Part shown: one piece after another, positions 19,170 through 36,296 of the stretch
How the letters are laid out: each line of letters begins with the position of its first letter
Position numbering within the stretch: the stretch's first letter is position 1
From: Treponema sp. J25
GTDB lineage: Bacteria > Spirochaetota > Spirochaetia > Treponematales > Breznakiellaceae
Assembly (NCBI RefSeq): GCF_004343725.1
Contig: NZ_PTQW01000010.1
Span: forward strand, 1 to 64,000
Length of the DNA: 64,000 bases
Reading direction: 5' to 3'
The notes under the pieces: generated by a model
Database searches by the model: none
The model's input: the letters and a program-made list of their open reading frames with translations, nothing else
What the model was told of the DNA's origin: nothing
Program-made: the position numbers and the translations under genes

Positions 19170-20381
19170 CTATTTCCCCAGGATCGCCGCATTACAGGCA
19201 TCCAGTTCCTTTTTTACATCCGCCCCATCCCAGATGTTTTTGCTTGCATTTCCCATGGCTTCCCAGTACGCCCCCATTTGAGGAATTGAAGGCATGGGGA
19301 AGGCATAATTAAGCTGGGTAATAAAGCCCGCCATGTAAGGGCTATCGACCTTTACGTCGATGGCAGGCATGGCGCCGGTAATATCAAACCGGAGTTTCTG
19401 CATTTCTTCGGAAACAAGGAAGGAAGCAAAGAGATGAGCTTCTTCTGGGTGGTCCGAATAGGCGGAAACGAACATAGCCCGGGTTCCTGAGAAGGATGCC
19501 GGCGGAGTGCTTTCGCCCGGGAGGGCCGGAAGGGGGGCTACTCCGAAATCAATGCCTGCATTTTTAAAGGGAACCACGTTCCATAGGCCAGTAATGTACA
19601 TGGCCGCCTTTCCGGAGGAAAATGCCGTGTCAGCCACAGAGGTAGTAAGGTCTGCCGCAGGAACATTCAGAATAGAACGGAGGCTCTGGAAAAACTTCAT
19701 CCCTTTGATAGATTGTTCTGAGTTAATATTAGTAGCAGTTGTGTCATTCCCGTTGGGACCGAAAAGGCGATTTCCCCCACTGGTGGTAAAGATGATGGTG
19801 TAATACGCATTCCCAACATCCATGATAAAGGCATATTTACCAGGATTGGCGGGGTTAAACTTCTTCGCAAAATTTACAAGTTCTTCCCAGGTTTTGGGAA
19901 CCTCTGAGTCTTTGATATAGGCCCGGTTATAAAAGAGTGCATAGGTTTCGGCAGAAACGGGGTAGCCATACATGGTTCCATTATACGTAAGGGCCGTAGC
20001 ACAGGAACTCAGAACCTTTTTCTTTATTTCCTCGGGATTTTTAGTGGGAAGTACATGACCGCCGGAAACCAGTTCGCCCAGTTTGTCGTGGGGGGCCGCA
20101 AACACATCGGGACCGACGCCGGCAGGTCCATCAAGGGCAATTTGGCCTGCCGCATCCCCCAGTTCTACGTTCACGTATTTAATCTTGATGTGGGGGTATT
20201 TCTTGGTAAAGGCCTCTCCCGCTTGTTGAATGAATTTATCGGGACCATTGGTAGATTCCCACACGGTAAGAACCACCTCTTTGCCACCCTTTGCTGTTCC
20301 TGTTTTACCCTGGCATGAAAGGGCCAGTAGGGAAAGCAGGGCCACTAGGGCACTCAAAATTACGAGCCATCGCTTATTCAT
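19170..20381 (-). CDS. Sugar ABC transporter substrate-binding lipoprotein, MalE type
   Basis: A 403-residue family-1 solute-binding protein anchored to the inner membrane. The signal peptide ends in the lipobox A-L-S-C with Cys23. The mature domain shows VLTVWESTNGPDKFIQQ, then FTKKYPHIKIKYV, GPDVFAAPHDKLGEL and AAMYITGLWNV, all typical of maltose/oligosaccharide binders. The ATG overlaps the lacI stop (20378-20381) and AAAGGAGG precedes it. With GH35 in the operon, the ligand is probably a galactose-containing oligosaccharide (inference). Confidence 0.95.
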   Translation of the reverse strand: MNKRWLVILSALVALLSLLALSCQGKTGTAKGGKEVVLTVWESTNGPDKFIQQAGEAFTKKYPHIKIKYVNVELGDAAGQIALDGPAGVGPDVFAAPHDKLGELVSGGHVLPTKNPEEIKKKVLSSCATALTYNGTMYGYPVSAETYALFYNRAYIKDSEVPKTWEELVNFAKKFNPANPGKYAFIMDVGNAYYTIIFTTSGGNRLFGPNGNDTTATNINSEQSIKGMKFFQSLRSILNVPAADLTTSVADTAFSSGKAAMYITGLWNVVPFKNAGIDFGVAPLPALPGESTPPASFSGTRAMFVSAYSDHPEEAHLFASFLVSEEMQKLRFDITGAMPAIDVKVDSPYMAGFITQLNYAFPMPSIPQMGAYWEAMGNASKNIWDGADVKKELDACNAAILGK

Positions 20382-21553
20382 GATAAGCCTCCTTTGAAAA
20401 ATCCTATATTGCTCGGTTGCATCGCAACCGTCGAATCCTTTTGTACTGCCCTCGAAGAATCCCGTATCACAAAATCCGCTTTTAACCTGTGAATAGCATC
20501 AATCTTCCTTCCTTCAAGCATATCGATAAGAAGTGTGGCTGCAAGACTCCCAAGCTTCTGAATTTCCACATGAACTGCGGAAATAGGTGGAAGATGCTGT
20601 TCCATGGTTGTACTATCATGAAAAGAAACCACCGCAACATCATCGGGGATGCGAACTTTATAGCGATGCAGAATATGCAGAGCCTTAGCGGTGATAACGT
20701 CATCCATTCCGATGATACACTGGGGTCCTTGGGGGAGAATGTGGTGTATCAATTCTTCCAGAACAGTTTTACTTGTGGCATTCCAGAAAACAAGGGGGTA
20801 ACCTTCCTGTAATGGTAGTTGTCGGAGATCTGTGGGCACTTGAAAAAATTCTTTTACTTCTTTGATACCTCCTTCGGTGAGGGCTAGGCGATATCCTTCG
20901 TATCGATCCTTGTTTACCTGATGATGGGGATTACCCGCCAGAAGGACCTGCCGAGAAAAATCCTGCCGCAGAAGATGGAGGGTTGCATTTTTGCATGCTT
21001 CTCGATGGTCTGAATCGACCTGAACCACGGAAAGGTCTGCCACACTACCAATCACCACAAAAGGAAGGGATTGTTCTTTTAGAAACTCGATGCTTCGATC
21101 CGTGGTAAGGGGCCGAGTATGAATGACCCCATCCACTTTACGATAACGAATAAGGCGTTTAAGAGAGGCAATGTCGTGCTCCGTGGTCACCGCTACGACC
21201 GTATCGTATTCTGAACGAGAAAGGGTTTCCGCAATGGCATGAAGGCAGGTCTGAAAAAATGGGATTTCCTGGACTTCGGTATCGCTCGGCATAGTTACCG
21301 CAATGTTGTACGTACGGGCCTCTGCTAGTCCTTTGGCAATACGATTTATCTGGAATCCCTGTTGTTCAATAAAGGAACGGATTCGTTCTCGGGTTTCAGG
21401 GCTGATACGGCCTTTCCCGGAAATTGCCCGGGAAACGGTAGATTTAGACACTCCAAGAGCTCGGGCAATATCTTCGATATTTTTTACAGAGGTGGAAGGA
21501 GATAATTCCTGAGACGATAGTGAGCCATTGTCTAACAAGGAACCTTCTGACAT
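20378..21553 (-). CDS. LacI-family transcriptional repressor of the GH35/ABC operon
   Basis: A 391-residue LacI/GalR regulator. The start at 21553 is chosen over the ATG at 21592 because AGAGGA lies seven bases upstream and because the longer form would overlap the operator. The helix-turn-helix is at 24-50 (NIEDIARALGVSKSTVSRAISGKG), followed by the hinge and a periplasmic-binding-protein-like sensor domain (NIAVTMPSDTEV to the end). It is the first gene of its own operon, so it should be autoregulated. The palindromes at 21590-21615 are the likely operators. The effector is probably a sugar released by GH35. Confidence 0.93.
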   Translation of the reverse strand: MSEGSLLDNGSLSSQELSPSTSVKNIEDIARALGVSKSTVSRAISGKGRISPETRERIRSFIEQQGFQINRIAKGLAEARTYNIAVTMPSDTEVQEIPFFQTCLHAIAETLSRSEYDTVVAVTTEHDIASLKRLIRYRKVDGVIHTRPLTTDRSIEFLKEQSLPFVVIGSVADLSVVQVDSDHREACKNATLHLLRQDFSRQVLLAGNPHHQVNKDRYEGYRLALTEGGIKEVKEFFQVPTDLRQLPLQEGYPLVFWNATSKTVLEELIHHILPQGPQCIIGMDDVITAKALHILHRYKVRIPDDVAVVSFHDSTTMEQHLPPISAVHVEIQKLGSLAATLLIDMLEGRKIDAIHRLKADFVIRDSSRAVQKDSTVAMQPSNIGFFKGGLS

Positions 21554-21642: not shown

Positions 21643-21703
21643 ATTAAAAAGGTTTTAAGGGGAACCTTATGCCGTCGGGCCTGGTAGGTAAGGCGCAGGC
21701 TTG

Positions 21704-21924
21704 TCGGTCCCGTACACCGAACAGCTGGGGGCGTTGCGGGGGTGTCCCCCGCAGAGGGGGTAGCGGAGGCCGCCAGAGGGCGTGGTGGGGCTTGGCAGCG
21801 GTGACCTGCTGGCTGCAAGCCCGGGACCACCGGAGAAAAGCAGTGCCGCGGCGAATTGCGCGGTGACAGGGTGCCGGGAGTTTTTCCCCTCTGGCGGCCG
21901 GAGCGAGGGGGAGACTTCCCCCTC
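21704..21924. ncRNA. GC-rich folded element (putative structured RNA or mobile-element remnant)
   Basis: Much richer in G+C than both flanks and full of inverted repeats. There is a perfect 13-bp outer stem (21768-21780 with 21887-21899). It encloses a long arm (21782-21799 with 21812-21830, three helices, 16 pairs) and a second hairpin CCGCG/CGCGG (21846-21850, 21859-21863), which makes a three-way junction. Outside lie hairpins at 21704-21720, 21735-21753 (8 bp, 3-base loop) and 21905-21924 (8 bp, 4-base loop). The open frames here have no start signals and odd Pro/Arg/Gly composition, so I do not read it as coding. It sits between divergent promoters. It could be an RNA, an insertion-sequence end, or a chromosomal repeat; I recognise none of these families. 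Confidence 0.5.
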
Positions 21925-22002: not shown

Positions 22003-23214
22003 ATGAATACAATAAAAGTACTGGTATATGTTAATCAAAAAGCAGCAGGGCTCCTTACGAGAGAAGGACGGGACTATGTGTTTACCTATCAAACAACCGA
22101 CCCTTCCTGCTTTGTTTCTTTAACCATGCCGGTACGAAATAAAAGCTATGTTTTTCCCCGGGACCAGCTTCATCCTATTTTTAACCAGTATATTCCGGAG
22201 GGGTACCTTTTTGAAATTTTTAAAGCCCTCCTTTCCAAAGAAGTGGGCGAACTTGATGAACTTACCTTGCTCGCGGTTCTCGCTCCATCAATTAAGGGGA
22301 GGCTTACCTTTTCCGCTGTGGATATGCCTCCGTCGCTCATCGATAAAGTGTCACCCCCGAAAACCCCTGAGCCTCTTCTTCTGGATGAACTTATCCATAG
22401 GAAAGACGACCTTTTTGAGGAACTCCTGGAGCGGTTTTTATACCGCTCTGCGATAGGGGGAATTCAACCTAAGGTTCTCGGGGTACTCCGTGACAAAATA
22501 AATCTTTGTATGGATGATTATATCATTAAAACCAGTGGAGAGGCCTATCCATTCCTTACGGTTAATGAATATTTTTGTTTACAGGTAGCTCGGCATGCGG
22601 GCTTATCGGTGCCTGAGTTTTTTCTCAGTGATAGTCAAAAGCTTCTCATTATTAAACGATTTGCAGGTAATCAGAACCCCGCTGTCGGCTTTGAAGAAAT
22701 GGCGGTCCTTCTGGGTAAAACTAATCGACAGAAATATGAAGGAAGCTATGAACAGATTGCGAGGGCTATTAGCCTGTTTACCGGTCCTTCTGAAACCAGA
22801 GGGTCTTTAGAGCAGTATTTTATGTTGATGGTCCTTATGGTTCTTCTCCGGAATGGAGACGCCCATCTTAAGAATTTTGGGGTCCTGTATGGTACTGGCC
22901 AAAGGGACTGCCGTCTTGCACCTCCCTACAACCTGGTTACTACGACCTGCTATCTTCCCCATGATACGCCGGCCCTCACTCTGTTTGGGAAAAAATCATG
23001 GTGGAATAAAAAAAGGTTGTTCCATTTTGCAGAACAGTACTGTATGATGACGCCCCGCAGGAGCGCCGAACTTTGGGATTCCTGTATTTCCGCGGTTTCT
23101 CAGGTTCGGAGGGAACTAGTAAAATACTGCAAGGAGCATCCTGATTTTAATGTTATAGGGGAACGAATGCTGAAAGAGTGGCAGATAGGAGAAAAAGCAA
23201 ATGGAGATATATGA
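22003..23214 (+). CDS. hipA: HipA-family serine/threonine kinase-like toxin, possibly inactive
   Basis: A 403-residue HipA homologue of normal length. Residues 5-100 are the N-terminal HipA subdomain. S149 in SAIGGIQPK corresponds to the loop that carries the autophosphorylated Ser150 of E. coli HipA. The catalytic loop N284-G-D286-A-H-L-K-N291 is intact. The metal-binding Asp that normally follows about 23 residues later (Y-D-L/V) is N310 here, in LAPPYNLVTT. In the family that Asp binds Mg-ATP, so activity may be reduced or lost. Canonical HipA phosphorylates glutamyl-tRNA synthetase and halts growth. The gene precedes its hipB partner, the reverse of E. coli, and overlaps it by 14 bases. 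No Shine-Dalgarno sequence is present. Confidence 0.9.
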   Translation: MNTIKVLVYVNQKAAGLLTREGRDYVFTYQTTDPSCFVSLTMPVRNKSYVFPRDQLHPIFNQYIPEGYLFEIFKALLSKEVGELDELTLLAVLAPSIKGRLTFSAVDMPPSLIDKVSPPKTPEPLLLDELIHRKDDLFEELLERFLYRSAIGGIQPKVLGVLRDKINLCMDDYIIKTSGEAYPFLTVNEYFCLQVARHAGLSVPEFFLSDSQKLLIIKRFAGNQNPAVGFEEMAVLLGKTNRQKYEGSYEQIARAISLFTGPSETRGSLEQYFMLMVLMVLLRNGDAHLKNFGVLYGTGQRDCRLAPPYNLVTTTCYLPHDTPALTLFGKKSWWNKKRLFHFAEQYCMMTPRRSAELWDSCISAVSQVRRELVKYCKEHPDFNVIGERMLKEWQIGEKANGDI

Positions 23215-23559: not shown

Positions 23560-23904
23560 TTAGTCGCCCACCTTCTCTGTTGTTGGCGGTATGCTCGCCG
23601 GGGCTTCGTAAATTAGCTGGCCAACCCTATCGATGTGCTCTTTTAAGGCTGGATTTTCTATGTCTTCGTAGTGGACAATATCAATAAAGTATGGTAAGGG
23701 GCCCTGGTCTTCGAGCAGAGCATGAAGTTTTGATATGGTGGTAAAGGTGATTGATGGACCCGCTATGGCAATATCAATATCTGAACCCCTTTTGTACGTT
23801 CCCTTTGCCCGGGAGCCGAAGATAAAGGCCCTCTGGATCTCTGGGAATTGTTTCAAAGCGGCTATGATATATGAAAGGTCCGCTTCGTCGAGGCCGTATT
23901 TCAT
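23560..23904 (-). CDS. MntA-like minimal nucleotidyltransferase antitoxin
   Basis: A 114-residue minimal nucleotidyltransferase (MNT). The active-site signature GS-x10-D-x-D is complete: G30-S31, D42 and D44 (FGSRAKGTYKRGSDIDIA). In HEPN-MNT pairs this protein neutralises the HEPN ribonuclease by adding AMP to it or by binding it. It follows the HEPN-like gene on the same strand with a five-base gap, so they are co-transcribed. Length and motif fit the HI0073/MntA group. Its antitoxin role is inferred from family and pairing. Confidence 0.88.
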   Translation of the reverse strand: MKYGLDEADLSYIIAALKQFPEIQRAFIFGSRAKGTYKRGSDIDIAIAGPSITFTTISKLHALLEDQGPLPYFIDIVHYEDIENPALKEHIDRVGQLIYEAPASIPPTTEKVGD

Positions 23905-23909
23905 ATTAT

Positions 23910-24305
23910 CTATGCCCGTCCTTCCAGAGTCCGGTAGAGGTCTTTTAGGATCTTATAATATGAATGCATTATCAGATTGGCCGCTTCTTCTGCCCGCGCT
24001 TCATCATAGGTGTGGGCCATAAGGTTCCGTTTTTCAAGGGCATCGATCCACAGATGCCCTTCGTGGATAAGGCCGGACTGAAAGGCGGTCTGAATGGTAT
24101 GCCGGGGGCTTTGAATGGTATACCCTTCGGCTTCTAGATAATCCTTCATGGTTTTCCAGGCAAGTTCAAAGGTGTACTCAAAGCATTGGATAAGCCCTTG
24201 TTTTTCAAATTTATTAAGATCCCCTTTGTTAATAAATTCGTCGAGTTGGGCCATGGCTTGCTTGTAATTGGAGAATCGTTGCTTCCAGCGGATATCCTGT
24301 TCCAT
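23910..24305 (-). CDS. HI0074/HepT-like HEPN protein (putative toxin)
   Basis: A 131-residue all-helical protein of the nucleotidyltransferase substrate-binding (HI0074) family. It carries the HEPN ribonuclease signature R93-x4-H98-x-Y100 (RNLMAHTY). FEYTFELAWKTMKDYLEAEG and IQTAFQSGLI are characteristic of the family. Paired with the MNT five bases downstream, it should form a HEPN-MNT toxin-antitoxin complex in the cytoplasm. Whether it acts as an RNase is unproven: some HI0074 relatives may only be binding partners. The pair converges on hipA-hipB. Confidence 0.87.
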   Translation of the reverse strand: MEQDIRWKQRFSNYKQAMAQLDEFINKGDLNKFEKQGLIQCFEYTFELAWKTMKDYLEAEGYTIQSPRHTIQTAFQSGLIHEGHLWIDALEKRNLMAHTYDEARAEEAANLIMHSYYKILKDLYRTLEGRA

Positions 24306-24488: not shown

Positions 24489-27400
24489 TTATTTTAATTG
24501 GGCTGTTTCAAGGCTAGTAGTTGTAGCATAACCAAGAATAGGCTGATTTCCCTTAATGCCTATACCTACTGTAAAGTCTTTGGGGATATTAGATGTGGGA
24601 ACAGTCATGATTTCCCAACTCCCAGTGTACATATCATTATTTACTCCGTCTGATAAATCACCATTCAACCAGGCAACCTTAACACTGAAGGATGTGGCGG
24701 TAAAAGAACTCATGTAATAACTTATATAAGGAATTCGTTTTGTTCCATTGGTTTTCCAGCTTATAGAAATATTTGTCCCCACTGCAAGGAAGGAGTCTAC
24801 CGTGACCACCGTGGCAGGCTGATTATAGGCACTCTTGTATGCGTACCGAAGATCGCCATTAGAAGAATTATAATATGCAATATGAATTCCCCCAAGATCA
24901 TCAACAACTAGATCTACATACCACCCAGAAAAATCTGCATCAATCACAGTTGCATTGGTTTGCCATTGGGAACTGGAAGCTCCAGTTGGATCAGTGTTAT
25001 AGCTAAACATAAGTTTTCGATTTGTTGCATCATACCATGCTATAACAGCAACAGAGCCATCTGGGGTAATTCCAATTGCAGAATATTGGCCGGCTTTATA
25101 AGTAGTAGTGGTGTTTCCATCGGCTACTACATGGTAACCTGCAGCAGAACCATCCGCCACATTACCATGATTTGCTATATTGCCTCCAAAAGTGGGACTC
25201 CCAGGATATGTACCGGACACAGTTCCATAGCGATACCGAACTTGATTATTAGAAGCATCGTAGTAACTCATGAATACATTTGTTGTACCACCATTAACAA
25301 ACGTGACCATCTTGGGACTTTGAATCCTATTCGGATTGAAATTCGGGGATGCAGCGGTATTGCTATTTGCATTTTCAATCATGCGTTTATGGGAACCACT
25401 GCTATAGGCTCCGGTACTATTTAGTATATTGGTTCCAGCTTGCCAAGCATAGAAACCAAAATTAGCCCAGCCTCCTCCTGTACCAGTATTCATATCTTGA
25501 TCACTACCAGTAACACCACTTCCTCCGTAATCTCCATTCATAGCTCCTGCATACCAGCGATCGTTTGAATCGATTGCAAAACCGGTATCATACCACTGGG
25601 TATAAGATCCATCTATTTTTGTATCTGTTCCATTGACGTTAACATGTACCTCTTGAGCCCCACTAGCGTATGCAAAGCCCACATATTCATTAGCGCTTCG
25701 GGATACCCGCATAGAAGGATAACGAATCATTGAACTGGTAACGAGACTATTGAATTTCCAGAGGTAGAGATAAGTATCATCGTTCAATTGAGCATTATTG
25801 ACTCCATTACTAAAGGAATTCCATTCTTTCTCGTTGTTATTGTTATTATTAATAGAAGATACTCCGTTTACGGTAAGTATGAGTGTTCCACTGGTAGCTG
25901 TTGTTCCGGTATTAATTACGATTTGGGTCGTAGATCCACTTGATGGTGTGATAGATGTTCCATTAATAGTCACTCCCGTACTTGTCCCATTCAAATTAAA
26001 TCCACTAATAGTAATATTTTCATTTTCTCTCACTGGATACCATCCAAGAGCAGACCTATTGAACGCACTCGGCTTAGATGCATACGCTGAGCTAAGCGCT
26101 GTTGTAATATCCTTGACATACGGCACCACGTCCACCTTCATGATGTTGAAGCCGGTGGTTAAGGCTGTGCTGTCAGTGGGAGTAGCGGGGGTCTGGACTG
26201 AGCCGTTGGGGCCGCCGCTTGCGGCAGGCCGGGCATCTTCTGCCCGCACCCGGATGCGCACATTCGCCCGGGCAACGCCGCTTACCTTACTGCTGTCCCA
26301 TTCAAACGTCCATTCCACCGTATGGCCGCCTGCCAGGGTAAGGCTCTCACTTGTGGCAGTCCATTTTCCAAGAGTATTGCTTGTGTCTTCTACAAGACTA
26401 CTGCCGCTAAATTTTGCTACCTGTTGCTCTTCGCCTGCATCAACTGTTCCGTTCCCATTCAGGTCTATCCAGATATAGAGGGCGTTAATCCGCTGATTGT
26501 CGCTGGCTCCGCCGCGGAACACGATGGTGCCGCTCACATCCGCATCGTTGCCAAAGACCTCATTCGTCTTATTAAATCCACTATCCTCGTTATCATAGGG
26601 GCTCTGGTTCCAGGGTTCGATATGGCCCTTCCATACGGACCGGTCGCTTGCGTTGTAATCCTTCACGTCCGAAGCAGCGAGCTGGTACAGCCATGCCGCG
26701 GGGGCCACCTCGTCCACATTGTCGATGGTAAGACCCACCGTAATGGTGGCGGTTAGCTCGTCGGTGGAATCATCATCGTCACTCGTGGTGCTGTCGTAGA
26801 CCAGGATGGTAAAGAACCTATCGTTGGCGCTGCTGCTCTCCGCAAAACTGCTGGTATTGATGGTGACCGTATTGGATGTCAGGGTCCCATTCTGTTCGGT
26901 CCCGTTGTATGTAATCGAGTAGCGCTTGGTCCCGTTGCCGCCCGTCGCATTCACCTGAATATACAGGCGGTTCCCCCGGGCGGTAAAGTTCGTAGCGCTG
27001 TAGCCCGAGCTAATTTCGCTTGTTTTTTCGCCCGAGTCATCGGTATCGTCATCCCCATTCAAGTCTGTTCCAAGGACTATAGAAGTAATGCTTGGCTTGT
27101 TGTTGGCCACATAGGCGTTGGTGCTGCCGCTCACGGTGTTGCCCGCAAAGTCATAGGCCACATAGTTTACTTCCGTCTTGCCATCAGAAACCAGGATTGA
27201 ATTGAACCGGGCCGCCCAGTTGTACACACCGCCGCTAATGGTAAGCCACTCGGCAAAGCCATCGTTATCTCCCGCAGAGCCAGTGTCGTTGCCGTCTTCC
27301 AGGCGGTTATCAATAACGATGCGGTAGTCGTTGTAGGCGCTGTCGCTCAGGTTCAGGACGCCGCTTGCATCAAGACTGCCACTACCGCCCTTTAAGCGGA

Positions 27401-30400
27401 CTACGCTGTCGCCTCGCTTGAGGTACACCACCACCTGCTTAATACCCGACACAATGCCCGTATCCCGGACCGTTCCTTGCACTTCTGCCTGGGTACCGAT
27501 GATTTCGCTCCCCGCCGTATAGGTCAGGTTCGAAGGCAGAATGTTGTCCACGTTAAAGCTCAGGCTTAGGATGCTGTGGAATCCACTTGAATCAATCGCA
27601 TCCAGGGCCACCGCCATGATACCTGAGGAAGCGGGGAAGAGCCCTGCTTCGGTGGTGTTAATCGGTATTTCAAGCCGGTAGGTCATGTAGCCTGCCACAT
27701 AGCCGGGTTCGCCGCTATTCACAAGCACCGCCCGGGGCTGGCCAGAGGCAGCCCCAATCAGTTCCTGACTGGAGATGCGGGGCCCTTCATGCTTAAAGAT
27801 GATGCTCTGAAGACCGCTTTCGTCCCGTACATAGCCGGTGATAGTAAAGCTGCCCCCTACGGTGCTCCCTGTTTCGTGGGATATGTCGGCGTACTGGGGC
27901 ACGGTCTTATCAAAGGTAATGGTCCGCACCACCTCAATTCCCGGAATACCATCGCCGGGGGTGGTCTTGTAATCCCAGGCTCGGACCTTGAACTTTATTG
28001 TCCGGGTGGTGTCGGTGCCGGTGGGATTGAATTCCCCATACAGGTTGATGGTCTGGTACCAGCTCGTGGTGCCGTTGACGAGGTACCAGGCGGTGGTACT
28101 GCTGTCCGATTCGTCCGCTGACGGCGGAGTAAAGCCGCTGATGCTCGGCCATACATCCCCCGCATCATTAAAATCACCGTCGTTATTCATATCAAAGGCA
28201 ATCTGGACCTTCCAGATGGACTGACCATCCTGGGCAATACCAAAGATCCGCTTGTACCCCCCGATGGTTGCCCCATCGTCGGGGTCAAGGACGGTCACTT
28301 CCGGCCGGTCCCGGTTGGGGTCGATTTCAAGGGTGTAGGTTGATACATAGGATATATTCCCCGTGCTTCCTAGTCCCGCGGTATCTTCAGCGCGGATATA
28401 GATCTTCATCCGCCAGATATTCAGCCAGGTTTCGCCCGCATCCTGGACACCGTCCTGGTCGGTATCCCCAATGTCCACCGCATAGGTAGTATTGGCATAG
28501 GCGCTGATATTATTAAAGGTGTAGGACCAGCTTACCGTTCCCGTAGCAGGATACCAGGGGCTTCCTTCATAGTCTTCCTCGTTGACGGTCTTGCCGATAC
28601 CGATCTTGATATTCTTAATCGTCGTGGTAGTATCCTCAGCGCTTCCGCGGATGCTTACCTTGCCATATACACTGGTTAAGTCCGCAGGATCGATGATGGT
28701 GACCACGGGGCCTGTGGTATCCACTACCACGGTGCGGCTTATAAGGGTGGTGCGACCCGCCGCATCGGTGACGCGGGCGTAGATGGTCCGGGTGCCATCG
28801 GGAATGGTAGCGAAGGTGTAGGTCCAGGTACCGCTCGTGCTGCCCGAACCACCTGACATGGTGGCCGTGACGGCGCCGCTCGTAAAGTCGCTAGAATCAA
28901 TCTTAAGCTGTACGGAAACGACCGGGTTTTCGTCCCCATAGGTTCCTGTAAAGGTAAGGTCTCTGGCCTTAAGCTTGCTGTTAGCCGCAGGAGCGGTAAA
29001 GGCTCCGTCCGGGGCTTCCCGGTCAACCAGGAAGGTAGCGTCACTACTGGTACCTACGATGGCGGGGCTTGAAACATCGGTTACCCGGACCCGCAGGCTA
29101 TACGCGCCGTCGGTGCTGCCCAGGTCGTAGTTCCAGCTTGCGCTGGTTCCCCAGCCACCGGTGGGGGCGGAGAGGGTAGTCCAGTTTGTACCACCGTCGG
29201 TGCTTACTTCTATAGAAGCAATACCATCATCATCGGTGGCGGTTCCGTAAATCTTAGAATCCGCAAGGTACACGCTCTGCTGGGTGGTAAAGCTTATCTG
29301 CGGTATATCGGTGCTCTGGTCGATCCTGAAGGTCCGGTCGACGGTGGCGATGTTTCCTGCCACGTCGGTTATGATGAGACGCAGGGTAATTTCATAGAGG
29401 CTGCCACTAATCAGGGTTGCGTAGGCGCTCTCGTCGTAGGTGCGGGTATCGAAACTCAGGCTCCAGTCATTTGCGCCAGTGGGGGCGCCAAGGTCGGCCA
29501 CTTCCGTACCATCCTTCATGATGGCGAGCCGGAGACTACCTAAACCAAAGTTATCTGAAGCGGTTCCCGACAGGGTGATGATGTTATTGGTGGTGCTGCC
29601 GCTTGCGGGACTTGCAAAACTTCCGGAGGGCAGGGTCCTATCCACCGTGTAGGCATAGCTTTCCTGCCGTTTGTTGCCCGCATTATCTTCGGTTTCAAAG
29701 GTTACCTGGTAAATGCCCGTGCCGCTGCTTGTGGGGATGAGTCCCGTGGTAAAGCTTGTTGTGGCAGAACCGGGGCTCCCGAGGGTACAGGCGGTCCAGT
29801 TTACAACCACCGTAGCGCCATCCTTGACAACCCGGTAACGCACCGCCGTGACCGTACCTTGACTATCAGTCGCAGTTCCGCTCACCGTAAAGTCCCCATT
29901 GCGGTAGCCCGTGGTTGCGGGGCTTATGTTGCTGATGGTGGGGGCCCCCGCATCCTGGGTAAAGGTGATGCTCTTGGTGGCCACGGTTCCGTTCACATCC
30001 GCAATCTTAAGCTGCAAGACTTTGGCTCCATCGATGCTATTGGTAAAGGAGAAGCTGCTTAAGGTTTTTGCTGTAGCCGAACCGGTAAGGTACGAAGCGG
30101 GAATTTGCGTCCAATCGGGGCTCCAGGTGGTGCCCCCATCGGCGCTTAAGCGGTAATACAGGGTAGCATCGTTAAGACCGTCATCGTCGGCAAGACTTCC
30201 GCTGATGGTAATGGTCTGGCTCGACACAAGGCCGCCTTCCGTGGGACTGCCAATCGTAAAGGTGGGTTTATCCGTATCCTGATCTACCCGGATGGTATAG
30301 GATGCAACGGCCACATTGCCCGCATTGTCGGTACCCCGTACTTCGATACTGAGGTCTGCCTTATCGGTGTATGCAGTGGTATTAACCGCGAAGGTAAAGC

Positions 30401-33400
30401 TGATGTAGGGAGCGGTTCCGACGCTCTGCCAGGTGCCGCCACCAACGCGGTATTCCAAACCCGCAAGGCCGTTGAGATCGCTGGCGGTGCCGCTCATGGT
30501 CATGGTGCCGTTGCCGTACACGGTTCCGCTTATTTCAATATACGGAGCCGGTTGGTTAAAGCTTACTACCGGCGCGGTAGTATCGATAGTAATGGTTTTG
30601 GTAACCGAGGTGGTCTTCAGGGCGCCATCGGTCACGGTGATGCGGTATTCATAGGTACCATCGGAAAGGCCAGTAATATTCCGAGTGTAGGACCAGATGC
30701 CCGTTCCGCTGTCGTAATCAGCCGTACCGATGTCAGTAAAGCTAGTATCACCGGGTTTCTTTTCTGCTACCGTAACCAGGGCCACGAGGTACGAGTCGCT
30801 GGCAGTCCCCGTAAAGGTAATCGAGCCATTAGCAAGGGTTGCCACTGGACCGGTAAGACTAATCGAGGGGGCGCTCTGGTCAATGCCAAAGGATCGTTCG
30901 GTCTGGGCCGAGACATTGCCCGCCTTATCCACCGCTTTAACAAAGAGCTTCTTGGCTCCTTCGCCCAGGGCTGTTAGATTGATAGTCCCGCTCCAGCTTT
31001 CGGTTCCACTTGCCAGGTTCCAGCCTGCCAGGTCTGTGGGGGGCGTATACCCCGTGGCGGGTCCGACGATGTAATAAACCGCACCGATGCCAGCGCTTCC
31101 CACGTCACTGGCGGTGCCGCTGACGGTGTAACTGGTCCCGAGGATCCAGCTATTCATGCCGGGGCTGCTCACCGTGGGAGCCGAGGGGGCCTGGGTGTCC
31201 ACAACCACCGTACGGGACGCACTGGTACTGCGGCCCGCTACGTCCGTTACCGTGATGGTGTAGGTATAGGAACCTTCTCCACTTAAGGAAATTGAGGCAG
31301 TCCAGGTTCTGCTCGTGCTCCCGGTTCCAAGGCTTACCGTAACAGGCTCAGAGGATCCCCCTTCTTTTGTCTGGGTAATGCTGACCGAAGCGACCCCATT
31401 GGTGTCGGTGACACTTCCTGCCAGGGTAAAGCCCGTGGTGCGGAAGACGGGGGATTCCCCAAAGGTGGTCCCATCAATCGTAATAGTTGCGAGGGCAGGT
31501 ATGTTCTGGTCGACCATAAGAGTGATACTCTGTACGCTGCTCTGGTTCCCCGCCTTGTCGGTTACATACACATCCAGAGTATGATTCCCTTCACTTAATC
31601 CTGTATCGGGACCGGTGCCATCCGTATCCAGATCCAGGGTAGTATTCCAGCTTGCGGTCCCCGAAGCTTCCTGCCAGGAGCCTCCATCAACACGGTAATA
31701 GACCTTATCAAGACCGCTGGCCTCACTTCCACTATCGCTACTTGTCCCCGTAATAGTAACACCAGGTCCTGCCACAAAGGTCCCCGGACTTGTTACTGAG
31801 ATGGTTGGCGCTACCGTATCGATAGTGACGGATACACTCGAAGATACGCCAACCCGTCCAAATTTATCCGTCGCCCGGACCAGCAGAACCTTTGTCCCAT
31901 TGCTACTCGCTGCCGTAATCAGCTTGCTCCAGGCCTTGTTTTCGCCGGATGCGGCGGTAATACCCAGGTCCTCCCAGCTTATTCCACTATTCATACTGAA
32001 CTCGACGTTGCTAATCCCGTTCGCATCCTGTACCGTTCCCTGGACCGTAAAGTCCGCCTTCCGGTAGGGGCCCACAGGGTTACCATCGCTGGCGTTTGCG
32101 TTCAATACCACCGTCGGTACCGCCGTATCGTAGGCAAACCACACCGGCGTCATCGAGGCATTAGAGACCCCCGTCGTATCGGTTACTTCAATCTTGAACG
32201 CATACGTCCCATCCGCAAGACCCGCCGTACTTACATCAAAATCAAAACTCTTCGAAAGGGTGCTCCCCGTCAGGTTTACCGTATAGCTTTCGCCAGAACC
32301 AAAACTTCCATCCTTGTTCTTGTCTATCCAAATCGTTGCCGTGTCCGGTACTCCATCGTCATCGGTAATTGTGCCGCTGATCTTTCCGCCGCTTACCAAC
32401 AGGTTCTTTATCGTCGACCCCAGAATCCCGGATTCCGCCGTAACCGATGGGTCGAGGGACGTGAGACTTACCACCGGCAGGTCCGTGCTCTGATCTACAT
32501 AGAAGCCCACCGCACTGCTCGCCCCTTCGTTCCCTGCTTTGTCCCGGGCTACTACCCACAGGTAATACTGGGTGTTGTCGGCCAGGGTTGTGGTATCGAT
32601 GGTCTGGCCTGTAAGTATCTGCACTATAGAACCACCCACAGTGGCATCATAGGCTGGCGCACTTGTCCCATTCGTACTCACAAAGTACTTGACTCCCTCA
32701 AGACCATTCGCATCACTTGCGAGGGAGTTAAAGGTTACTGTTTTATTGACTTTATTTGCTGTGGCATATTTGGTAAAGCTCGTGATTTCTACAACAGGCT
32801 TGGTATCGTCGAATACAATCCGGCGGGTAAGGCTTGTCTTTTTCCCCGCGAGATCTTCCACGGTGATCCGATAGGTGTACTCCGCATCCACCAGGGTTAA
32901 GGCCGCGGGATTCCCCGGATCCCGGGGAAGGTTGTTCACAGTCACGGAGCTCGTGGTTCCACTGACAGCCCCGGAGTAGATAGTAACGTAGGCCCCGCTT
33001 CCCTGTTGCTGTTCTACGAGGATACTCTTTAGTTGATACGTATCTCCCACCGTTGTGGCAAGACTAAAGGTAGCGTTCCGGTATTCCCCATCACCAACGG
33101 AAACTCCGCTGATGGTGGGATTGGCCTTATCAAGATAGAACTGTAAACTCTGGGGAGTACTCACGTTGCCTGCCAGGTCTTCTGCATAGACCCAGAATTT
33201 TTTAGAACCCTCCAAAGCAGTTGAAAGGTCTACCGTGGCGGACCAATTTACGTTTCCTGCCAGACTTGTCCATGCCGCATTTCCGACAGCGGGGGGGGTA
33301 TCGGTTTCGTTACCGATCCAATAGTAGATTGTCTTAATACCGGTGGTGTCGTTCGCGGTTCCGTCAAAGCGGGCAAGGCTTTCGAACCAGGAACCAGCGG

Positions 33401-35963
33401 CGGCCGGATTGGTGATGCTGATGGTGGGGGGCACCGTATCCAGGCGAATCTGGTGGGTTATGACGGTTTGTTTGTTAAAGAAATCCTGGGCCAGAATATA
33501 AAAGGTTTTTGTTTCGTCGATCCCCGCATTCACGGTGTAAGAGTAGGACCAGGTGCCGTCACTTGCGACGGTTACCAGGGTATTGTTGGCCGTATCAGTA
33601 AAATCTGCATTCAACGTACGGACGATAACCGCCTGGGTGCCCGCTGTGCCTGTATCAAGGTCTTTCAGGGCAAAGCTATCGCTGGCAGTTCCCTGGATCT
33701 GGAAAGTCCCGAGGCCTTTGTAACTACCGTAACTGGGAGAATTAACTGCCAGGGACGGAGGCTGTCGGTCTATGGCAACATAGAAGGGGCCAATGGTAGT
33801 GGAAACCGCGGGCTTCCCATCCTTGAGGGAGGCCTTATCAAATACCCTCACTTCCACCGCCCGCACTCCTTCGGGGATATCCGAGGGGAAGGTGTAATCG
33901 AAGCTGGTAGTGCTTGCGCTCGTTGCAGCCTGCCAGTCTCCCCACACAAGTGGATCGGATGAACTTTCAAGCCGGCTGGTATAGCGGATCTGCACTGTGG
34001 TGGCATCGATACCATCATCATCGGATAAGAGGCCGATGATACGGGCATTCGATTCAAGGAGGTTTGCTGCTGCCCCAGCCCAGGTACTCACCAATTGATT
34101 CAGGTTGGTAAGGTTAATCGTAGGATTATCGGTACTCTGGTCTATGGTAAGTGGGTCGTAAGTTATATATGTAGTGTTCCCAGCCTTATCTCGAGCCCCA
34201 AAACGGAGATACAAGGTACCAGTGAGACTTGTGGTGTCAATAGCTACCGCATAGGGAGCGCTGCTAAGTTCCACATAGCCTGAACCATTCCAGTTCTGGA
34301 TCGATTCGGCCGGTGGTGTCGTTGTGTACGTCCAATACCGAACCCCCGCAAGACCGTTGGTGTCCGCCGCAGTGACCGAGGCTTTGATGATACCGTTTAC
34401 TCGTTTATCGCTGGATTCTACAATTGGGTACACCTGGTTAAAACTAAGGTCGGGCGCGGTGTTATCTATAGTCACCTGCAAGTCTCGACTTGATTTTGAA
34501 CCGCCCCGATCTACCGATCTTACCTGCACATTGTAGTAGCCCTCGGTGGTGTTGGTGCCATTCCAAGTCCAGGTGTAGCTTCCGGCACTTCCTGAAAGAT
34601 TGGCGTCCTGCCAAGAAACACCGCCATCCAGACTTATCTGTACTGAATCTATATCCCATCCATCGCTCGCGGTACCCGAAAGGGCAAAGACGTCAGAACG
34701 GAGGACGTTGCTTGCTAAGGGATTCACCGTCAACGTCGGGGGACCGTTGTCGATAACGAAGGATTTGTTTTCTACTTTCGTGGTTGATGCATCTTTACCA
34801 TTTTTATAGGCCGCATCATCGGAGACTTCAAAAGAAAACTTGTATTCACCCTGCGGAAGAGACGTCTCTTGGGGCACCGTAAAGCGGAACCGCACACTGG
34901 TGGCTTTTGTTGTGCCTGAGGGATTTGCAGTGAGGCCCAAATTTGCGACAGTGTATTCATATTTAGTTCCAGTACCTGTTTCCAGCACCAACTTCGCACT
35001 GCTGCGGTCCACCGCATCGTCGTCTTCCACGGTGATATCGATGGTGTCCCCATTTTTAAAGATGTTGCCGCTGTACAGTGTGGGATTTCGAGGATAGTTT
35101 GCAGCGGTACTTACATCCAGACTGGCGGGCCAGGTAATCCGCGGCGCGTCATAGGTTAAATCCACATAGCAGGTTTGGGTAACCTCAGCGCTGTTTCCCG
35201 CCTGGTCGGTCACAATGAGTTTTAACTCAGCGCTGTAGAGGTTGCCTGAAATATTAGTAAACGCCGCGTCCTTCCATTTACTTCCATCAGTAACTAAACC
35301 AGTAACTACATCATCAAAATCAAGGTCTACGCTCCAGCTTGCCACCTCCGAGGCAGTGGGGGAAGGATTGGCGTCGGTAGGGAATATGCGGACGCCGCCG
35401 AGGGTTACTACCACACTGGAAAGCCGGCCGCTTCCGTCTTCGGCCATACCCTGTATTTTTTCTTTGCCATTATAAGGATTATCCTGAGAAGTTCCTCGGT
35501 CAGCTGCAAATATAAAGGCCCCTGAGGGGGGCGTGGTATCCACGTTTACCGTGCTCTGCCATTCACTGCTCTTATTGCTTGCGTCGGTGGCCCGGGCGGT
35601 AAATACATAGCGTCCATCCGCCAGTTCCCCCTTGTTAAAAGTCACCGACCAGCTATTTCCCGAAACCACGGCCCGTTTCGATTTAGTGCCACTTTCCCAG
35701 ATCAGCTCTACCGACGAAATAGCCCCATCGTCGGTAACGGTTCCGCTGATTACGATCTTACTATCGGTATAGTTCACATAGGCATTATTCACGGGGCTGG
35801 TGATCCGGACCTCCGGAGGATAGAGATCCACCTTATTCCCAAGACCCACGTTAAACAGTTCGCAGGAAAGGGGAACCATCACACCTATCAGGCTTATACC
35901 AAGAACTCCCCACCAATAAATTCTTTTATGAGGATTCTGTGATGGTTGCCTCATTGTATTCAT
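24489..35963 (-). CDS. Giant multi-domain Ig-like repeat lipoprotein
   Basis: A 3824-residue exported protein (11.5 kb). The start at 35963 is preferred to the far upstream in-frame ATG at 36098 because GGAGG lies eight bases before it and a signal peptide with lipobox V-P-L-S-C follows. The chain then holds about 27 bacterial Ig-like modules of 95-140 residues joined by linkers such as VDTTPP, IDTVAP and VDQSTD, with a recurring ISGTVTDDGAISSV-like strand. Ca2+-binding-like loops occur near 1209, 2495, 2588, 2960 and 3163 (for example DTDQDGVQDAGE). A TIG-like module lies near 3310. The last 430 residues repeat a YYNSSNGDLRYAY-type blade like BNR/sialidase propellers. Surface adhesion or polysaccharide binding is the likely role (inference). 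Confidence 0.92.
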   Translation of the reverse strand: MNTMRQPSQNPHKRIYWWGVLGISLIGVMVPLSCELFNVGLGNKVDLYPPEVRITSPVNNAYVNYTDSKIVISGTVTDDGAISSVELIWESGTKSKRAVVSGNSWSVTFNKGELADGRYVFTARATDASNKSSEWQSTVNVDTTPPSGAFIFAADRGTSQDNPYNGKEKIQGMAEDGSGRLSSVVVTLGGVRIFPTDANPSPTASEVASWSVDLDFDDVVTGLVTDGSKWKDAAFTNISGNLYSAELKLIVTDQAGNSAEVTQTCYVDLTYDAPRITWPASLDVSTAANYPRNPTLYSGNIFKNGDTIDITVEDDDAVDRSSAKLVLETGTGTKYEYTVANLGLTANPSGTTKATSVRFRFTVPQETSLPQGEYKFSFEVSDDAAYKNGKDASTTKVENKSFVIDNGPPTLTVNPLASNVLRSDVFALSGTASDGWDIDSVQISLDGGVSWQDANLSGSAGSYTWTWNGTNTTEGYYNVQVRSVDRGGSKSSRDLQVTIDNTAPDLSFNQVYPIVESSDKRVNGIIKASVTAADTNGLAGVRYWTYTTTPPAESIQNWNGSGYVELSSAPYAVAIDTTSLTGTLYLRFGARDKAGNTTYITYDPLTIDQSTDNPTINLTNLNQLVSTWAGAAANLLESNARIIGLLSDDDGIDATTVQIRYTSRLESSSDPLVWGDWQAATSASTTSFDYTFPSDIPEGVRAVEVRVFDKASLKDGKPAVSTTIGPFYVAIDRQPPSLAVNSPSYGSYKGLGTFQIQGTASDSFALKDLDTGTAGTQAVIVRTLNADFTDTANNTLVTVASDGTWSYSYTVNAGIDETKTFYILAQDFFNKQTVITHQIRLDTVPPTISITNPAAAGSWFESLARFDGTANDTTGIKTIYYWIGNETDTPPAVGNAAWTSLAGNVNWSATVDLSTALEGSKKFWVYAEDLAGNVSTPQSLQFYLDKANPTISGVSVGDGEYRNATFSLATTVGDTYQLKSILVEQQQGSGAYVTIYSGAVSGTTSSVTVNNLPRDPGNPAALTLVDAEYTYRITVEDLAGKKTSLTRRIVFDDTKPVVEITSFTKYATANKVNKTVTFNSLASDANGLEGVKYFVSTNGTSAPAYDATVGGSIVQILTGQTIDTTTLADNTQYYLWVVARDKAGNEGASSAVGFYVDQSTDLPVVSLTSLDPSVTAESGILGSTIKNLLVSGGKISGTITDDDGVPDTATIWIDKNKDGSFGSGESYTVNLTGSTLSKSFDFDVSTAGLADGTYAFKIEVTDTTGVSNASMTPVWFAYDTAVPTVVLNANASDGNPVGPYRKADFTVQGTVQDANGISNVEFSMNSGISWEDLGITAASGENKAWSKLITAASSNGTKVLLVRATDKFGRVGVSSSVSVTIDTVAPTISVTSPGTFVAGPGVTITGTSSDSGSEASGLDKVYYRVDGGSWQEASGTASWNTTLDLDTDGTGPDTGLSEGNHTLDVYVTDKAGNQSSVQSITLMVDQNIPALATITIDGTTFGESPVFRTTGFTLAGSVTDTNGVASVSITQTKEGGSSEPVTVSLGTGSTSRTWTASISLSGEGSYTYTITVTDVAGRSTSASRTVVVDTQAPSAPTVSSPGMNSWILGTSYTVSGTASDVGSAGIGAVYYIVGPATGYTPPTDLAGWNLASGTESWSGTINLTALGEGAKKLFVKAVDKAGNVSAQTERSFGIDQSAPSISLTGPVATLANGSITFTGTASDSYLVALVTVAEKKPGDTSFTDIGTADYDSGTGIWSYTRNITGLSDGTYEYRITVTDGALKTTSVTKTITIDTTAPVVSFNQPAPYIEISGTVYGNGTMTMSGTASDLNGLAGLEYRVGGGTWQSVGTAPYISFTFAVNTTAYTDKADLSIEVRGTDNAGNVAVASYTIRVDQDTDKPTFTIGSPTEGGLVSSQTITISGSLADDDGLNDATLYYRLSADGGTTWSPDWTQIPASYLTGSATAKTLSSFSFTNSIDGAKVLQLKIADVNGTVATKSITFTQDAGAPTISNISPATTGYRNGDFTVSGTATDSQGTVTAVRYRVVKDGATVVVNWTACTLGSPGSATTSFTTGLIPTSSGTGIYQVTFETEDNAGNKRQESYAYTVDRTLPSGSFASPASGSTTNNIITLSGTASDNFGLGSLRLAIMKDGTEVADLGAPTGANDWSLSFDTRTYDESAYATLISGSLYEITLRLIITDVAGNIATVDRTFRIDQSTDIPQISFTTQQSVYLADSKIYGTATDDDGIASIEVSTDGGTNWTTLSAPTGGWGTSASWNYDLGSTDGAYSLRVRVTDVSSPAIVGTSSDATFLVDREAPDGAFTAPAANSKLKARDLTFTGTYGDENPVVSVQLKIDSSDFTSGAVTATMSGGSGSTSGTWTYTFATIPDGTRTIYARVTDAAGRTTLISRTVVVDTTGPVVTIIDPADLTSVYGKVSIRGSAEDTTTTIKNIKIGIGKTVNEEDYEGSPWYPATGTVSWSYTFNNISAYANTTYAVDIGDTDQDGVQDAGETWLNIWRMKIYIRAEDTAGLGSTGNISYVSTYTLEIDPNRDRPEVTVLDPDDGATIGGYKRIFGIAQDGQSIWKVQIAFDMNNDGDFNDAGDVWPSISGFTPPSADESDSSTTAWYLVNGTTSWYQTINLYGEFNPTGTDTTRTIKFKVRAWDYKTTPGDGIPGIEVVRTITFDKTVPQYADISHETGSTVGGSFTITGYVRDESGLQSIIFKHEGPRISSQELIGAASGQPRAVLVNSGEPGYVAGYMTYRLEIPINTTEAGLFPASSGIMAVALDAIDSSGFHSILSLSFNVDNILPSNLTYTAGSEIIGTQAEVQGTVRDTGIVSGIKQVVVYLKRGDSVVRLKGGSGSLDASGVLNLSDSAYNDYRIVIDNRLEDGNDTGSAGDNDGFAEWLTISGGVYNWAARFNSILVSDGKTEVNYVAYDFAGNTVSGSTNAYVANNKPSITSIVLGTDLNGDDDTDDSGEKTSEISSGYSATNFTARGNRLYIQVNATGGNGTKRYSITYNGTEQNGTLTSNTVTINTSSFAESSSANDRFFTILVYDSTTSDDDDSTDELTATITVGLTIDNVDEVAPAAWLYQLAASDVKDYNASDRSVWKGHIEPWNQSPYDNEDSGFNKTNEVFGNDADVSGTIVFRGGASDNQRINALYIWIDLNGNGTVDAGEEQQVAKFSGSSLVEDTSNTLGKWTATSESLTLAGGHTVEWTFEWDSSKVSGVARANVRIRVRAEDARPAASGGPNGSVQTPATPTDSTALTTGFNIMKVDVVPYVKDITTALSSAYASKPSAFNRSALGWYPVRENENITISGFNLNGTSTGVTINGTSITPSSGSTTQIVINTGTTATSGTLILTVNGVSSINNNNNNEKEWNSFSNGVNNAQLNDDTYLYLWKFNSLVTSSMIRYPSMRVSRSANEYVGFAYASGAQEVHVNVNGTDTKIDGSYTQWYDTGFAIDSNDRWYAGAMNGDYGGSGVTGSDQDMNTGTGGGWANFGFYAWQAGTNILNSTGAYSSGSHKRMIENANSNTAASPNFNPNRIQSPKMVTFVNGGTTNVFMSYYDASNNQVRYRYGTVSGTYPGSPTFGGNIANHGNVADGSAAGYHVVADGNTTTTYKAGQYSAIGITPDGSVAVIAWYDATNRKLMFSYNTDPTGASSSQWQTNATVIDADFSGWYVDLVVDDLGGIHIAYYNSSNGDLRYAYKSAYNQPATVVTVDSFLAVGTNISISWKTNGTKRIPYISYYMSSFTATSFSVKVAWLNGDLSDGVNNDMYTGSWEIMTVPTSNIPKDFTVGIGIKGNQPILGYATTTSLETAQLK

Positions 35964-36296
35964 ATATGTTTCCTCCACTATCTCTAGCTGTCTTTCTAAA
36001 AATGACTCGAATGACCGAAAATAGCATGCAATAATCATGCCATATACGGTTTGATTAACAGGTCTTTCATGAATCTTAACTATTTGCATATAAATCATTT
36101 ATTATTTTTACATCTATTTTACATCTTTTATTTTGGAGATTCTTGTTAAAAAGTCGACAGATTCGTCGAATTCTAATAATTTGCGGCGAATGAGCCGTTT
36201 CTGGGGGGAAAACTGTGTTTTGTAAAGAAGGCGGTAAGAATGTAAAAGTTCCCTTTTTACGGGTATAGAGCTTTTGTGTTCTTTTTCAATCTTTGC
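35964..36296. other. AT-rich divergent intergenic region
   Basis: It separates the giant gene (leftward) from the two-component operon (rightward). It holds GGAGG for the giant gene at 35971-35975. Frames extending into it (minus 36098-35964 and minus 36323-36114) lack ribosome sites and are not credible extensions or genes. I see no clear minus-strand promoter. Confidence 0.5.

Follow-up and report, generated by a model that had tools for sequence, protein, structure and literature searches.

The GC-rich block at positions 21704 to 21924 of the 64,000-nucleotide stretch of Treponema sp. J25 DNA analysed here (the window) very probably represents a copy of a palindromic mobile element that is non-autonomous and whose moving unit is a cluster of three hairpins. 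On our best reading the nearest kind of repeat is that of the protein-coding palindromes of the RPE/REP type known from Rickettsia, although the element appears to constitute a distinct family. Its copies share conserved ends and paired stems, are dispersed in both orientations and end sharply within unrelated flanking sequence; orthologous sites are found both filled and empty, and there are in-frame insertions in essential genes. We infer that the element spreads as selfish DNA. The family appears to be undescribed: its core sequence was not found in the literature that we searched, nor was any description of it found in the literature on palindromic repeats and MITEs of treponemes and other spirochaetes or on those of sphingomonads.

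The initial annotation had drawn attention to a multi-hairpin, GC-rich block from 21704 to 21924. The block is real, but the conserved unit within it is slightly narrower (21727-21922); its G+C content of 70% compares with 29% and 25% in the AT-rich flanks and 51% over the whole window. The parts of this copy and its two neighbouring genes are as follows.

21727 to 21922, plus strand (the orientation of the family consensus): whole element copy, with conserved ends and an enlarged P4; copies in the same genome and in relatives share both ends.
21727 to 21734, plus strand: 5' G-tract and CGTT motif (GGGGGCGT...), kept in the 36-copy alignment.
21735 to 21753, plus strand: P2 hairpin, TGCGGGGG-tgt-CCCCCGCA, with perfect arms; in other copies, changes on both sides preserve its pairs.
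21753 to 21767, plus strand: conserved linker AGAGGGGGTAGCGGA, a 15-mer that occurs six times in the J25 genome and in at least 191 exact copies in one relative (G013), the reversed-pattern control giving 0.
21768 to 21899, plus strand: P4, the variable stem; in this copy it has 13 perfect base pairs and encloses about 106 nt, within which lie two inner hairpins. P4 covaries across copies.
21900 to 21904, plus strand: GGAGC strand opposite AGCGGA, a conserved purine-rich internal loop in the copy alignment.
21905 to 21924, plus strand: P5 hairpin, GAGGGGGA-GACT-TCCCCCTC, with which the element ends on its 3' side; every one of the 36 aligned copies keeps it paired.
20378 to 21553, minus strand: neighbouring LacI-family regulator (Pfam LacI, Peripla_BP_3), outside the element.
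22003 to 23214, plus strand: neighbouring HipA-like kinase (Pfam Couple_hipA, HipA_C), outside the element.

The outer stem is complementary at 13 of 13 positions (arms 21768-21780 and 21887-21899), a length reached in none of 200 dinucleotide shuffles, where the longest perfect arm averaged 7.8 and never exceeded 11. Predicted folds also contain both of the nested hairpins that had been proposed, an inner arm at about 21782-21831 and a second inner hairpin at about 21843-21866, as well as the flanking hairpins at 21735-21753 and 21905-21924; a third flanking hairpin near 21703-21722 is weaker. The three-way junction that these elements were thought to form is the enlarged P4 of this copy and not the conserved core. 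When both strands were folded, the energy of the minus strand was significant (z -3.39), whereas that of the plus strand was ordinary for its composition (z -1.35). The latter value is what might be expected of a chance GC-rich fold or of decayed coding sequence; such an origin is scarcely credible, however, for a block that has hundreds of homologous and covarying copies.

The block does separate divergent genes, the LacI-family gene being read leftward and the hipA-like gene rightward, and the AT-rich sequence on either side contains promoter-like sites. The window copy is an intergenic insertion near the hipA-like gene and probably has no dedicated role at its site, though an incidental effect on the expression of hipA or lacI is possible. 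Farther along the window, a nucleotidyltransferase with its substrate-binding partner (MNT/HEPN-like, 23560-24305) adjoins the hipA-like pair, and a 3869-codon reading frame, very long and containing many repeated segments, occupies 24489-36098.

The consensus of the element reads 5'-GGGG(G)CGTT-[P2 hairpin]-AGAGGGGGTAGCGGA-[P4, variable stem]-GGAGCGA-[P5 hairpin GGGGGAGACTTCCCCC], with the tetranucleotides GTAG and GGAG standing immediately 5' of P4 and P5. The length is typically 75-100 nt in relatives, where the middle is mostly a short hairpin, and about 104-253 nt in the J25 genome; in the longer copies, P4 or a hairpin loop has grown. In the J25 copies two near-invariant terminal blocks, 5' GGGGGCGTTGCGGGGGTGTCCCCCGCAGAGGGGGTAGCGGA and 3' GGAGCGAGGGGGAGACTTCCCCC, enclose a middle of varying length. 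Covariation, which the initial annotation had advised looking for, is present in P2 and P4: among 36 diverse copies, 94.6% of the cells in P2, P4 and P5 together are paired, compared with 85.9% after shuffling, two-sided changes occur in 58 cells compared with 17, and sliding the stem partners lowers pairing to 41-67%. P5 adds little to this evidence because it barely varies. The AGCGGA and GGAGC strands beside P4 could form G-A pairs. To judge informally from variants that keep the 3' C5 although their 5' G-run is impure, the G-tract and the C-tract at the two ends probably do not pair with each other.

Strong covariation in P2 and P4, conserved linkers and nearby promoter-like sites are also what one would look for in a functional structured RNA or a regulatory element, such as a terminator or a processing or attenuation site, that is maintained by selection. 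We consider this quite unlikely, since the copies are of mixed orientation and patchy number, lie in frame within unrelated enzymes and have no relevant match in Rfam (the window and eight other loci were searched, and permissive thresholds gave only chance-level matches); moreover, the same covariation is expected of an element that is recognised as a folded strand. Within the J25 genome, the combination of conserved cores and diverged P4 stems could alternatively reflect selection for function at each site.

Among the possibilities that had been raised at the outset, that of a dispersed chromosomal repeat proved right, copies, conservation and covariation all having been found. The J25 genome contains six copies, the one in the window and five on three other contigs. 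Matches were present in 30 of 59 genomes of near relatives (J25 included) and, with a covariance model, in 80 of 393 sampled genomes of the Spirochaetota, almost all in the same order; at most 11 candidates were scored per genome in this survey, and its copy counts are lower bounds. Occurrence is patchy, with copy numbers that range from 0 to at least 191 per genome. A scan of named genomes gave at least 120 stretches, and among the matches listed nearly all are from Treponema or from Spirochaetaceae metagenome bins, the complete genome of Treponema ruminis being among them. Many of the sampled genomes are metagenome bins, and the few matches in bins labelled Fibrobacter or Prevotellaceae may be binning errors.

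The element also occurs on extrachromosomal replicons and in phages. Plasmids of Sphingobium, Sphingomonas, Tardibacter, Magnetospira and Treponema saccharophilum bear copies that span most of the consensus, and those of Phenylobacterium and Paracoccus gave partial BLAST matches that were full-length by the covariance model; there are up to three places per plasmid. In seven Microviridae from the rodent gut a reading frame has a shortened copy at its end (the model confirmed both of those that were retrieved), and the element was likewise confirmed in nine IMG/VR contigs.

The limits of the moving unit are sharply defined. In 105 copies aligned on their ends, conservation falls to background within 1-4 bases beyond the element; C occupies position -1 in 70% of them and T position +1 in 80%. 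Unrelated flanks surround cores with 96-99% likeness, the variable P4 included, and the orientation of copies with respect to the neighbouring genes is mixed. There was no excess of flanking direct repeats indicative of a target-site duplication among the end-aligned copies, the ends of the aligned copies are not inverted repeats of each other, and none of the fetched loci held an autonomous version with a gene between two ends. Other repeats were seen in the vicinity of some copies. L094, L124, L189 and L235 (also L066 and L180) contain a repeat that consists of a GTTA-loop hairpin and, after it, CGAATCCGTGTGACAATAT; this repeat often forms an inverted pair, and at four loci the element begins directly after it. 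On contigs of termite-gut spirochaetes (L068, L086, L102, L132, L158) several copies are embedded in a larger repeat, the arms of which resemble GTTCCAAAAC ... GTTTTGGAAC.

By a heuristic, reading-frame-based analysis of copy context, many copies fall inside long reading frames that encode conserved proteins, and uninterrupted orthologues of such proteins exist. The claim that the structure is not explained by coding holds for the window copy and fails for the family, which is read through in frame in many genes. Isoleucyl-tRNA synthetase (IleRS) has the insert, a proline-rich segment, in five relatives and lacks it in others, J25 included; its position would correspond to a short linker, chain residues 211-216 of a solved yeast enzyme. 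MurE is filled in two species of one genus and empty in the other genomes aligned, and two close relatives bear a different repeat at the place where the element is inserted. CarB has the element at two different sites, in two loci, and for one of these the orthologues, including that of J25, match only the parts of the protein that flank the insert. Further in-frame cases include genes that by eye resemble those for an ABC transporter, an MMPL exporter, subunits of type III and type I restriction enzymes, MBOAT, RlmL and SufS. The essentiality of enzymes in this series suggests that the proteins with inserts work. A second palindromic repeat (GGTAGGGAGCGAC ... GGCAAAACTC ... GAGTTTTGAGCGAGTCTCGG) was observed inside the P2 loop of one element copy (L397), in frame in MurE of two related species (L382, L383), and at L290.

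Copies average 4.07 open reading frames out of six, compared with 3.34 in shuffled sequences (maximum 3.55), the excess being mostly on the antisense strand. Intragenic copies would survive because most of their frames are free of stops and because the sites at which they persist are tolerant protein linkers.

The initial annotation had also suggested that the block, which adjoins a toxin-antitoxin island, might be the folded end of a mobile element. This was not supported, for the element is complete in itself, and toxin-antitoxin families were not among the commonest in 140 sampled neighbouring genes, which were compared with a control set. The genes next to copies are ordinary and without common function, and the island in the window therefore looks coincidental. 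Within J25, copies on contigs C16 and C34 flank genes that by eye are Fic-like, VapBC-like and AAA-ATPase-like, and some of the copies on these contigs share an extra structured stretch of 100-130 nt upstream.

This arrangement bears on a further alternative, an integron attC-type recombination site that delimits toxin-antitoxin gene cassettes. Several J25 copies are co-oriented at distances of 1.4-2.6 kb, with genes resembling Fic and VapC (by eye) between them, and a copy on a T. saccharophilum plasmid comes after a Fic gene. The ends of integron attC sites are, however, marked by RYYYAAC and GTTRRRY boxes, which are missing from the ends of the aligned copies; intragenic copies and a wider sample without cassette-like gene content also argue against such a site, and we regard it as very improbable.

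How, then, might a palindromic mobile element of this type move? Strong end hairpins, together with the lack of terminal inverted repeats and of target duplication, suggest that it would be recognised as a folded single strand, presumably by an enzyme supplied in trans. Our first guess for that enzyme, which we would expect to be wrong somewhat more readily than right, is a transposase of the HUH/Y1 type or a replication nuclease from a phage or plasmid; the mobiliser may have been lost, may be unrelated, or may be borne by phages or plasmids. The J25 genome gave no match to a Y1 transposase (PF01797), to TnpB or to a reverse transcriptase. Across 58 genomes there was no association between Y1 genes and the element: 17 carriers had a Y1 gene and 13 did not, compared with 15 and 13 of the non-carriers (Fisher p = 1).

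Another conceivable origin is a REP/REPIN-type element for which the transposase would be a RAYT (Y1) enzyme descended from IS200/IS605. Such an element would share the end hairpins, the lack of target duplication and the placement of GTAG and GGAG just 5' of P4 and P5, and REPs too have documented intragenic copies (PMC3733652). But REPs measure 20-40 bp and have a terminal tag, GTAG or CGTC (PMC3733652), whereas the present unit is a block of three hairpins with the tag inside it. The absence of a Y1 gene from J25, the lack of association across genomes and the absence of the element from the four Y1 loci that were fetched also weigh against this origin, which we judge unlikely. A broader proposal is that of a single ancient family of protein-coding palindromes with its own folded-single-strand mobility, which has crossed phyla via plasmids and small ssDNA phages and inserts peptides into essential enzymes of gut spirochaetes; we advance it tentatively, its chances being only a little short of even.

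The best-known examples of RPE-type palindromes come from obligate intracellular bacteria. How palindromes of this type move has been an open question, and no transposase is known for them (PMC3733652). The present family offers sharp ends, covarying stems and, in some genomes, a very high copy number. In related species IleRS, CarB and MurE exist naturally with and without the insert, which makes both mobility and the effect of the peptide insert directly testable, and some of the carriers, T. ruminis and T. saccharophilum, are cultured.

Several known systems resemble the element in part. MITEs such as Correia/NEMIS, ERIC and RUP are likewise non-autonomous and dispersed and can fuse with reading frames; the MITE of a DDE transposon has terminal inverted repeats with target-site duplication, however, neither of which was detected here. 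With attC sites the element has in common a folded-strand character, an imperfect palindrome and a variable middle, but it has no attC core boxes and in the wider sample is not tied to cassettes. The GTAG and CGTC families of REP/REPINs are also dispersed hairpins, some of them intragenic, with GTAG beside a hairpin; the element differs in being longer, in its non-terminal tag, in the lack of a RAYT in J25 and in the missing association with Y1. The closest likeness is to the Rickettsia palindromic elements, which are small, lie both between genes and in frame within genes of conserved proteins and have no known transposase (PMC2229807, PMC3733652). The element is similarly a folding palindrome, intergenic as well as in frame in conserved genes and without an identified transposase, and of comparable size (RPEs being about 100-150 bp). 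The ends of the aligned copies bear no CGTC tag, and the distinction from RPEs is drawn on architecture and tag: the element consists of three hairpins in a row with internal GTAG and GGAG motifs, and its hosts are the Spirochaetota, alphaproteobacterial plasmids and ssDNA phages.
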